31,769 bases of DNA, from IMG/VR virus record IMGVR_UViG_3300009506_000789, positions 1 to 31,769 of that record. The stretch is one strand, 5' to 3'. This document shows, in pieces, positions 6,889-9,965 of this stretch. Every line of letters begins with the position of its first letter. Within the stretch, counting starts at the first letter, position 1. The notes under the pieces are model-generated. The model saw only the letters and a list, made by a program, of their open reading frames with translations, was not told where the DNA came from and did no database searches. A program made the translations under genes and the position numbers. Source of the stretch: a virus.

Positions 6889-7404
6889 TCACTGGCTGAC
6901 AAACGGCACCCCCGTAGACATCGGCTGCGGAGAGAAAAACGGCGTGGACCGAGTGACGGACTTGGCCCGCCAGTCTGATGGGGAGATGCGTTCGCCAGAC
7001 TGCCAGAGGCCGATCTGGCGGCTCTCGGCCCACGCCTGATGCCGCACGAGGCGGCTGGTGGTGGATTCTGTCTGTGCGGCCCACGCCCATCCTAGCCGCA
7101 CCATTGCCTCCGAGGCGTCCATTCCGGCCCAGCTTAGGCTCCCAGTCCATCGATTGCCCCCGAGCCTCCTGAGGCCTTCCAGGCGGCACACGCGACCCTC
7201 GCAGAGCACCCGTAACCACCCCCTGGCCTGCGGTCCCCACTGCTGATCCATCTCGGGAGCGTCGATCCCGGCCAGGTCCAGCTCCCGGCCGTCGGCCAAC
7301 GTCACGGTGTCGCCGTCAACCACGCGCACGACGACGATGTCCTGCGCCGCCGCGGCCGTGCAACAGGACATCAGGAGCCAGAGTGTAAGGACAAAATCAC
7401 GCAA
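6889..7404 (-). CDS. Secreted staphylococcal-nuclease-fold protein, 171 aa, one catalytic Arg replaced
   Basis: The start chosen is a TTG at 7404, 6 bases after a GGAG and overlapping the peptidase stop by 8 bases; longer starts lie inside the peptidase gene. Residues 1-20 are a signal peptide (RDFVLTLWLLMSCCTAAAA). The rest is a thermonuclease (SNase) domain: VVDGDTVTL, GIDAPEMD, then GNRWTGSL and IGLW. By alignment with staphylococcal nuclease the Ca-binding Asp (D32, D48), the catalytic Glu (E51) and the second Arg (R85) are present, but the first catalytic Arg (R35 of the classical enzyme) is Asp (D43, in ELDLAGIDAPE). Export of a nuclease from a phage operon suggests degradation of external DNA or a surface role. 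Activity is uncertain because of the missing Arg. A Cys pair near the signal peptide end is not a good lipobox. Confidence 0.8.
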   Translation of the reverse strand: MRDFVLTLWLLMSCCTAAAAQDIVVVRVVDGDTVTLADGRELDLAGIDAPEMDQQWGPQARGWLRVLCEGRVCRLEGLRRLGGNRWTGSLSWAGMDASEAMVRLGWAWAAQTESTTSRLVRHQAWAESRQIGLWQSGERISPSDWRAKSVTRSTPFFSPQPMSTGVPFVSQ

Positions 7405-9319
7405 AGTAATTCTCCGGCTTAGCCCGTTCGGACGGCCAACCGTCAAACAGGCTGTATGCGAACACCTCGGTATCCGAGCTGGCAACCTCCCGCTCCAACG
7501 ATTCGCACGTCACCCAGCCGCCGCCGTCTGGTCCGTCGAGCTGCTTCCCATGAGCACGGCCCCACTGGTTGCGACGATACAGGCACCACTCAGGCTGCGT
7601 GTCGAATGACAGAAAAGACATCTGGTGTGGCCATTGATCCGTTCCCTGGAACCAACTCTTTCCGCGGTCATCCTTAAGGGCCATCGAATAACCCCGCATG
7701 GAAGCGATGGTCACAAAGTAGCCGTTGCAGACTGCATCGACGATGGACTGAACGTCCCGCAACCTGGCAGTTCGTTTGATGAGGTGTTCCGCCGACTCAG
7801 TGAAGAACGGGGAGAGGTTGGATTTTGAATATCCCCAGCCATCGGCTACGGTTCCAGAGTATGCCGGAACTCCTTGGTAGTCTCTCCGAAGGACCCCGTA
7901 CTTGACCACGGTGTCCGCCATCCAAACACCCAGGCTACCGGCCTCTCGCCCCAATCGACCGTTGCCACCTTCCGGCATCAACCGAGAGATGCCATAGAGC
8001 CACGGAGGAAATGGAACCTTGAACCCTTCTATCTGTCGACAGCGCACGATCTCCCATGCCGCGACGGCCGCGATTGCGATGGCGGCACCGAACGATACGC
8101 AATTATGGACGATGTGACCATTGGCCACAAATGCATGATCTTTGTGAGCCACTCCGATGTCGTAAACTTCGTGCGGACCTTCGATGTACTTTACTTCGGC
8201 CACTCGCTTGCAGATGAACGAATCGTCTCTCCAAATCTCTCCGCGTCGTGTCTTGAACCAGGTGACCCGATAAAGTGGTTTTGCATTTGGGTACGTTCCG
8301 TTTGACCGAAACATTTCAGAGATTCTCGGTTCATAACCAGCGTGAATCAAACTGATGTTGACGCCCCTGACGAGACTGAGGCTCGTCGAGTCGAAATAAT
8401 TCCTGCCGTTTGCCTTGAATCCGTCAGCTGCTAGCAATCCGTTCACGAAATTTAGGTCGCCAATGTATTGCTCCGGAAACTTCTTCGATCCGTCCTCAGA
8501 ATAGAACCACTTCCTGAGGACATCTGCAAGACTTTTGGAATGGACGCGAACTCTGAGGCAATCCCTATCTGACACATAGCCAGTCGTGCGCGGGCGGTAT
8601 CCGGCATTCTGAAAGGCTGCTTCGAGCCACCTGGCGACATCATCAGTCGGCGTAGCGATTTCCACGGATCCATTGGCTGCGTAACCATTTCCCGCAAAAT
8701 AACCGAGCAAAAAGTGGTCGAGACCCAAATCAACTCCGTCCCTCTTGGGTAACGCATAGTGAGCTGGTTCCAGCACCAGATCACCAGGCCGCAATTCTCC
8801 CGCAGTTGTCCACTGAGCATGTCGAGTCTCGAATGCCGCAGCTACTTTCGTTGAATGCGACTGTTCATACCTGGCGCGCGTGACTGTCTTCCCTTCGACA
8901 GTAGGAATCCTGTAGACCAGAAAACAATGGTCCTCCGTCGTTTTGATCGGCAATCCACCGCGGACCTTCACTTCCACAAGTGGCTTTGATACTTTTTTGA
9001 CCGCCGTGCTGATCACGGTGGTCTGAGTGCCATCCGATGCTGTGACACTGTCACCAACTTTGATATCACAAATTCGCTTTGGCTGTGGCCCATCCACGAT
9101 CGTGTCAGCAGCCAAGCAATCGCCCGTCTGCTGCTCGTAGAGGATTGACTGATTGATATCGAAGCCGAGCGTCTTCCAAGCATCCCACGCGCATGTGCGA
9201 GTCGGAGTGACCGTCGGTCCAGTCAACGCGAACGGCTGAAACCGATGGCGCATCAAGGCCCAGGCCTGTCGAGCCTCCGCTGGGCCACGCCAACCGAACT
9301 TTCGATCACCGCTGGGCAT
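7397..9319 (-). CDS. Papain-like (C1) cysteine peptidase interrupted at the active-site Cys by an intein
   Basis: ATG at 9319 is chosen because GAGGGA lies about 8 bases upstream; a longer TTG start is less likely. The precursor is 640 residues: N-extein 1-67, intein 68-406, C-extein 407-640, giving a 301-residue spliced protein. Joining the exteins gives YEQQTGD-CVSFGAAIA, the active-site block of C1 peptidases (oxyanion Gln then Cys followed by x-S-F). The catalytic His is H565 (QWPHQMSF) and the Asn is N584 in YRRNQWG, the counterpart of NSWG in papain. Family members cleave peptide bonds. No signal peptide is seen, so the peptidase acts inside the cell, in the virion, or is released by lysis. 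It overlaps both neighbours (the secreted PDPDP protein and the secreted nuclease), so it belongs to one module. Its substrate is unknown. Confidence 0.9.
   Translation of the reverse strand: MPSGDRKFGWRGPAEARQAWALMRHRFQPFALTGPTVTPTRTCAWDAWKTLGFDINQSILYEQQTGDCLAADTIVDGPQPKRICDIKVGDSVTASDGTQTTVISTAVKKVSKPLVEVKVRGGLPIKTTEDHCFLVYRIPTVEGKTVTRARYEQSHSTKVAAAFETRHAQWTTAGELRPGDLVLEPAHYALPKRDGVDLGLDHFLLGYFAGNGYAANGSVEIATPTDDVARWLEAAFQNAGYRPRTTGYVSDRDCLRVRVHSKSLADVLRKWFYSEDGSKKFPEQYIGDLNFVNGLLAADGFKANGRNYFDSTSLSLVRGVNISLIHAGYEPRISEMFRSNGTYPNAKPLYRVTWFKTRRGEIWRDDSFICKRVAEVKYIEGPHEVYDIGVAHKDHAFVANGHIVHNCVSFGAAIAIAAVAAWEIVRCRQIEGFKVPFPPWLYGISRLMPEGGNGRLGREAGSLGVWMADTVVKYGVLRRDYQGVPAYSGTVADGWGYSKSNLSPFFTESAEHLIKRTARLRDVQSIVDAVCNGYFVTIASMRGYSMALKDDRGKSWFQGTDQWPHQMSFLSFDTQPEWCLYRRNQWGRAHGKQLDGPDGGGWVTCESLEREVASSDTEVFAYSLFDGWPSERAKPENYFA
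8102..9118 (-). other. Intein, 339 aa, with LAGLIDADG endonuclease domain
   Basis: The element starts at Cys (codon 9118-9116; CLAADTIVDG) and ends at His-Asn (HN; Asn codon 8104-8102) followed by Cys+1. Splicing blocks are all visible: block A CLAADTIVDG with the KVGDSV turn, block B LPIKTTEDHCFLV with its T-x-x-H, block F HEVYDIGVAHKDHAFV, block G NGHIVHN-C. All residues needed for class 1 splicing (Cys1, block B His, penultimate His, terminal Asn, Cys+1) are present. Between B and F lies a homing endonuclease with two LAGLIDADG motifs: LLGYFAGNG (precursor residues 204-212) and VNGLLAADG (292-300). The first has Asn (N211) where the metal-binding Asp is expected; the second keeps Asp (D299). 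Splicing is therefore likely intact while endonuclease activity may be reduced or lost. Confidence 0.93.
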
Positions 9320-9965
9320 TGGAGAGTCCCTCGCCAATCTCACGCAGCACAACGCCGTATTGCTTCACCGTCGTCACCTTTCCGTCTTTGATCAACTGGT
9401 CTACCGCATCCCCGACATCGTAGAGGAACGGTCGCCACGCGACCTCGAGCGCCCCGAGATCCGTGCGGTTTTTCTGCGTGACTTGTTCCCTGGCCGCCTC
9501 GATTGTCTTGATGCTGCCGGATGCCACCGCTGATGCCGTCGAAGTGAAGTTGCCGCCGATCTTTGCCATCAGTTGTCGGCCATTGGCTTCAATCCACCGA
9601 CTCGCCTCACGCGAGACCTCGACCATACCGAACGAACCTGGATCAGGATCTGGGTCAGGATCCGGCCCGGGTGTTGCCAGGATCTCAAAGACAAACTGGA
9701 ACGGCTGATCGTTTTCGATGCCATAGATCAGATAACTCCCAGGCGGCCCGTTGAACACCAGCCATCGTTCGCTGCTTTGGCCGGTGAATGTCTGAGCATA
9801 GACGTTGACAAATTTCCCGTTCACCATGCCGATGACCCAGCAGGCGCCGGAATGTTTGACCGTGACAAACTGATCACGGGGCGACTGACGAGGCGGAACG
9901 ACCTCTGCGCCCCATGACCAGGCCACGGATGAGCAAACCAGCATCAGGCAAAACAAACGAGTCAT
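9306..9965 (-). CDS. Secreted protein with PDPDPDPDP linker, 219 aa
   Basis: I place the start at the ATG at 9965, whose ATGA overlaps the stop of the small membrane ORF; an ATG three codons earlier is the alternative. Residues 1-20 form a signal peptide (MTRLFCLMLVCSSVAWSWGA). Residues about 30-96 are a small beta domain (RDQFVTVKHSGACWVIGM, then WLVFNGPPGSYLIYGI), followed by a Pro-Asp linker (PGPDPDPDPDPG, residues 99-110) and an alpha-helical C-terminal domain (about 115-219). I do not recognise either domain. The linker is typical of exported, multi-domain proteins. It is encoded directly upstream of the intein-bearing peptidase, overlapping it by 14 bases, so the two are likely made together and could act together at the cell envelope. 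Confidence 0.78.
   Translation of the reverse strand: MTRLFCLMLVCSSVAWSWGAEVVPPRQSPRDQFVTVKHSGACWVIGMVNGKFVNVYAQTFTGQSSERWLVFNGPPGSYLIYGIENDQPFQFVFEILATPGPDPDPDPDPGSFGMVEVSREASRWIEANGRQLMAKIGGNFTSTASAVASGSIKTIEAAREQVTQKNRTDLGALEVAWRPFLYDVGDAVDQLIKDGKVTTVKQYGVVLREIGEGLSNAQR

Follow-up and report, generated by a model that had tools for sequence, protein, structure and literature searches.

A class-1 intein of the LAGLIDADG type has very probably invaded the catalytic-cysteine codon of a phage papain-like (C1-type) cysteine peptidase. The gene lies in the window, the whole stretch of 31,769 nucleotides analysed here (IMG/VR record IMGVR_UViG_3300009506_000789). The source of the window is a tailed phage, as genes for a terminase, a portal, a major head protein and a tail tape-measure-like protein were recognised. 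In the proposed mechanism, Cys1 of the intein would make the N-terminal thioester, and the peptidase cysteine, as the +1 residue, would take over the acyl group. Cyclisation of Asn339 would then join GD to CVSFG and create the active site. The intein may sit at GD/CV (the slash marks the insertion point) because these codons belong to the best-conserved DNA of the gene, which would let homing inteins recognise the site across numerous phages, and because imprecise loss of the intein would destroy the enzyme.

The precursor is encoded within a minus-strand open reading frame at 7397-9352 (Table 1). Among the candidate start codons, the in-frame ATG that overlaps the upstream gene, which ends at 9306, was chosen as the probable start. 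The joined exteins form a peptidase of 301 aa with a computed mass of 33.8 kDa, in agreement with the spliced product of about 33 kDa given in the original prediction. The G+C content is 51% in the intein and 58-61% in the exteins, which is consistent with a foreign origin of the intein.

Table 1. Features of the intein-containing peptidase gene and its upstream neighbour (window positions).
Feature	Position	Strand	Basis or remark
Upstream gene, 222 aa, N-terminal signal-like segment	9306..9974	-	C-terminal domain conserved beside the peptidase in diverged phages
Precursor gene, papain-like peptidase plus intein	7397..9319	-	640 aa from ATG at 9319; 71.5 kDa
N-extein, 67 aa, C-terminal end YEQQTGD	9119..9319	-	
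Invariant Gln, five residues N-terminal of Cys	9131..9133	-	75/75 homologues; candidate oxyanion-hole Gln
Intein, 339 aa, class 1, LAGLIDADG domain	8102..9118	-	Pfam PF14890 and PF14528; AlphaFold model
Block A, Cys1 (CLAADTIVDG)	9089..9118	-	Same-site intein alignments, Cys1 invariant
Block B, TxxH (TEDH)	8918..8953	-	T and H invariant among same-site inteins
Endonuclease block C, LLGYFAGNGY, Asn replaces catalytic acid	8681..8710	-	Aligned with IYAAEG/LYLAEG of other same-site inteins
Endonuclease block E, VNGLLAADGF, catalytic Asp retained	8417..8446	-	Pfam and same-site alignments
Block F, VYDIGVAHKDHAFV, Asp and His	8126..8167	-	Same-site alignments
Block G, ANGHIVHN, penultimate His and terminal Asn	8102..8125	-	Same-site alignments
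Cys+1 codon, predicted catalytic nucleophile of the peptidase	8099..8101	-	Cys in 75/75 distinct homologues
C-extein, 234 aa plus stop	7397..8101	-	
Catalytic His, WPHQM	7625..7627	-	75/75 homologues; aligned with cathepsin H catalytic His
Triad Asn, RRNQWG	7568..7570	-	Asn in 57, Gln in 17 of 74; aligned with KNSWG of cathepsin H

The intein runs from CLAAD to HIVHN between GD and CVSFG of the peptidase. Pfam assigns it Intein_splicing (PF14890) with 41.8 bits (cut-off 35.8) and LAGLIDADG_3 (PF14528) with 24.1 bits (cut-off 22.5). As in class 1 inteins, Cys1 in block A and TxxH are followed by VYDIGVAHKDHAFV...HIVHN and then the +1 Cys, and the insertion is precise and in frame at a point where L041, the closest homologue, and other homologues are uninterrupted. 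Motifs, Pfam scores and the empty-site homologue agree with one another; they confirm the element as a class-1 LAGLIDADG-type intein by sequence and bear out exactly the boundaries originally assigned to it. This copy is expected to splice. In the AlphaFold model, the splicing domain is confident and the endonuclease domain is of low confidence; the best matches among solved structures are the inteins TliVMA (7qsu), PhoVMA and PI-SceI.

An active LAGLIDADG endonuclease carries an acid in both block C and block E. In the window intein block C has Asn, whereas block C of the other same-site inteins keeps Glu (AEG). The endonuclease is thus probably dead through a D/E to N exchange of a catalytic residue, and because Asn stands for the catalytic acid in block C, the copy is probably unable to home any longer. 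The loss could be ordinary decay or a first step to domestication. The VMA-type LAGLIDADG inteins (TliVMA 7qsu, PhoVMA 7qst and PI-SceI 1vde), the top sequence and fold matches, likewise consist of a Hint domain with an inserted LAGLIDADG endonuclease. They differ from the window intein, whose host is a phage papain-like peptidase, and sequence identity is low. In PhoVMA, loss of the endonuclease catalytic residues marks a degenerate endonuclease (PMC8966425); the window intein shares such a loss, although in it only block C is altered.

L041 lacks an intein and is 61% identical to the window peptidase over 296 aa. Its DNA aligns straight across the empty site, where it encodes YEQQIGD-CVSFG against YEQQTGD-CVSFG in the joined window exteins; the DNA across the junction is CAGCAGACGGGCGAT/TGCGTATCGTTCGGT in the window, and the corresponding L041 sequence is CAGCAGATCGGCGACTGTGTTTCATTCGGT. 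Neither the joined extein nor the intein alone retrieved a relative from viral contigs or phages in strict single-sequence searches, and a single-sequence search of the PDB with the joined extein was equally negative. The family was found with a degenerate DNA pattern for Q-x-GDCV-x-FG. The residue at -4 (E, K or A for Q) was considered as a mark of intein-positive alleles and rejected, since intein-less relatives also have E, K or A. HNCVxFG[A/H] patterns added only three matches, all chance matches to known loci.

The +1 residue is very likely the papain-type catalytic cysteine, judging by family alignments and a predicted fold. All 75 distinct homologues retain the Cys and one His; at the triad Asn position, 57 of 74 have Asn and 17 have Gln, in line with the original proposal that the +1 Cys is the predicted nucleophile of the peptidase. 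No intein-less homologue has a different residue at this point. The first DNA pattern used for homologues required the Cys. However, 32 of the 75 homologues lack Gln at -4 and entered through a second pattern or the intein scan; they cannot derive from the Cys-bearing pattern, and the Cys is kept in all 32. Replacement of the triad Asn by Gln (QSWG) is found in a large subfamily, e.g., L014, L038, L127 and L129.

The predicted fold of the intein-less L041 (pTM 0.83) has xylellain as its top PDB match (E 3.4e-9), followed by procathepsins and Legionella Lpg2622 among 209 matches at E<=0.001. The family profile matches cathepsin H (E 0.003), with His and NSWG aligned to the catalytic His and KNSWG, respectively. 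One relative matches Pfam Peptidase_C1 at E 1.3e-4, and PHROG 16701, annotated as 'peptidase', matches four family members. The window peptidase itself has no match to Pfam C1 (PF00112), for which relatives scanned singly reach 19.2 bits against a cut-off of 20.7, and neither Pfam nor PHROG gives a match for its joined flanks alone. Because its own Pfam C1 match is absent, its papain nature rests on the relatives and the predicted fold. Family C1 membership is thus indicated by the predicted papain fold of L041 and by Cys, His and Asn occurring in this order in the window. The initial report of all three catalytic residues stands as far as their presence is concerned, with the qualification that the window peptidase is not itself recognised as C1. 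The C1A peptidases xylellain and cathepsin share the papain fold and the Cys-His-Asn order with the phage family; they differ in that identity to it is about 14%, most phage members have no Pfam C1 match, and some carry Gln for Asn.

We infer that the host protein is a proteolytic peptidase. A papain fold without protease activity, serving a binding, structural or amidase-like role in which the Cys would not be a protease nucleophile, is unlikely, and would be compatible with the intein reading. The weak C1 link, with E 1.3e-4 for the best member and E 0.003 for the cathepsin H profile, and the Gln in place of the triad Asn in 17 of 74 homologues speak for such a protein. It is opposed by the invariant Cys and His, the Gln-Cys-His-Asn pattern, the papain fold and the PHROG 'peptidase' matches, as well as by a same-site intein in a canonical C1A protease described below.

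A thioredoxin-like domain is found at the C-terminus of some family members (e.g., L102:3767-5530). Two large phage contigs, IMGVR_UViG_3300024358_000009 (L069/L078) and 3300024509_000007 (L075/L079), each contain two diverged peptidase copies. In cellular genomes, the family occurs mostly in Planctomycetota records, with 13 of 392 sampled Planctomycetota genomes being positive, hinting at planctomycetes as phage hosts. None of these 13 has an intein-sized frame.

The secreted-protein gene directly upstream of the peptidase is common to the window and L041. In blastp searches, its product matches the upstream genes of L045 (3258-4022), L047 (3205-3984) and L072 (3156-3950) with E values of 6e-18 to 1e-9. 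A C-terminal domain of about 100 aa is conserved in the secreted proteins encoded at this position in diverged phages, suggesting that the upstream protein and the peptidase may form a functional pair. The downstream gene (window 6889-7485) codes for a homologue of staphylococcal nuclease whose N-terminus is signal-like.

In 14 further IMG/VR viral contigs (L087-L091, L119-L121, L123, L148, L149, L150, L155 and L157), an intein likewise sits immediately N-terminal of the catalytic Cys; at least seven diverged versions are represented besides that of the window. The catalytic-Cys site is a recurrent intein target. In L157 (2821-4641), the intein lies in a canonical C1A protease (NQGTTPM/CVAYTSAS; Pfam C1 E 2e-9), so that intein insertion is directed at the papain nucleophile rather than at a single gene family only. 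In the intein tree, the eight closest same-site inteins form one clade with support 97/98, and the L157 intein, like that of the window, is long or unplaced. A common origin is neither shown nor firmly excluded, with p-AU values of 0.048 for the window intein joining the core and 0.165 when the same-site inteins are all placed in a single clade.

The relatives show the behaviour of a homing element. The intein-bearing L088 and the intein-less L047/L048 are collinear, with 93% nucleotide identity over 2.9 kb on the upstream side and 94%, then 90%, on the downstream side, and differ by a clean insertion of about 1.08 kb. Eight changes of the intein label are required on the extein tree, of which at least six are forced by supported branches, and the sisters of intein-positive genes are typically intein-less. 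The endonuclease domain of L087, L088 and L090 is under strong purifying selection (dN/dS 0.05-0.09). Synonymous sites in these three have diverged less in the endonuclease than in the C-extein (0.16 vs 0.54 in one pair), which would be the result of transfer of the intein between phages later than the divergence of the host genes. This pattern of presence and absence, together with the selection, is homing-element behaviour. The mobility holds for the relatives and not for the window copy, because the window intein is a long branch that does not clearly fall in the same-site clade.

The inactivity of the peptidase before splicing follows from the position of the intein, as was pointed out originally. 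The precursor is formally a zymogen because splicing is needed for activity; this is true of any active-site intein. The further proposal of a timed activation switch fared poorly. In such a system, a domesticated, non-homing intein would act as a zymogen lock that borrows the nucleophile of the enzyme itself and releases it at a particular stage, a scenario to which we assign little likelihood. Splicing held until a redox, metal or lysis signal, upon which the protease is turned on, is accordingly considered very improbable. The precursor cannot be an active protease, and an endonuclease that looks dead beside intact splice motifs would suit an intein that has been retained without being mobile; other inteins have been documented to splice conditionally (PMC10663303). 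However, the homing cycle normally also passes through a stage with a dead endonuclease and intact splicing, and splicing would be retained because an intein that fails to splice kills the enzyme. A switch would be kept across relatives, whereas the intein is absent from most of them, including the closest homologues and a close intein-less phage; its presence changes repeatedly on the extein tree (eight changes), and homing-type selection and transfer are seen in one lineage. No sequence feature showing signal-dependent or delayed splicing was found.

It is likewise highly doubtful that the element no longer fully splices, cleaving at one or both junctions or lying inert, with the peptidase left as two fragments or not made in active form. 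The degenerate block C shows that decay of the intein has begun, but none of the splice-junction or catalytic residues is missing, the frame is uninterrupted and the C-extein retains its catalytic residues.

The invasion of a nucleophile codon by an intein has parallels in other phage enzymes. P1 Dmt (L187) carries an intein at GGTP/CQAFS and the thymidylate synthase ThyA of Aeromonas phage PS1 (L186) carries one at LTP/CHFSF; in both, by the established roles of these motifs, the +1 Cys is the catalytic nucleophile of the enzyme. The annotation of the P1 dmt and PS1 thymidylate synthase records does not name the inteins. Dmt, a C5 methyltransferase, and ThyA are different enzymes from the papain-like peptidase. 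Native intein sites lie at a mean distance of 8.3 Å from active-site residues (PMC3359363), and sites near active sites are also described in PMC5050341 and in PMC7765530. The original view that this insertion site is unusual was overstated, given this distance and the two phage enzymes. In the available part of the mycobacteriophage survey (PMC5050341), phage inteins at active centres (terminase, primase, methyltransferase and others) similarly occupy conserved functional motifs and are patchy and mobile; the hosts there are mostly nucleic-acid enzymes, and this kind of peptidase was not found among them. ClpP and Lon with inteins (PMC5784728) are likewise proteases as intein hosts, but they are not cysteine proteases. 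A natural intein in a papain-like peptidase was not found in the open-access literature searched. The pairing of an intein with this papain-like peptidase host is new and the insertion site is a recurrent hot spot; the way in which the element works is a known one.

These results add a widespread phage papain-like peptidase family to the hosts of inteins. The recurrent target is a protease nucleophile, so that the same thiol must serve first splicing and then proteolysis. Pairs of phages with and without the intein that are about 93% identical offer a clean test of whether it has a cost, a regulatory role or no effect on the phage.
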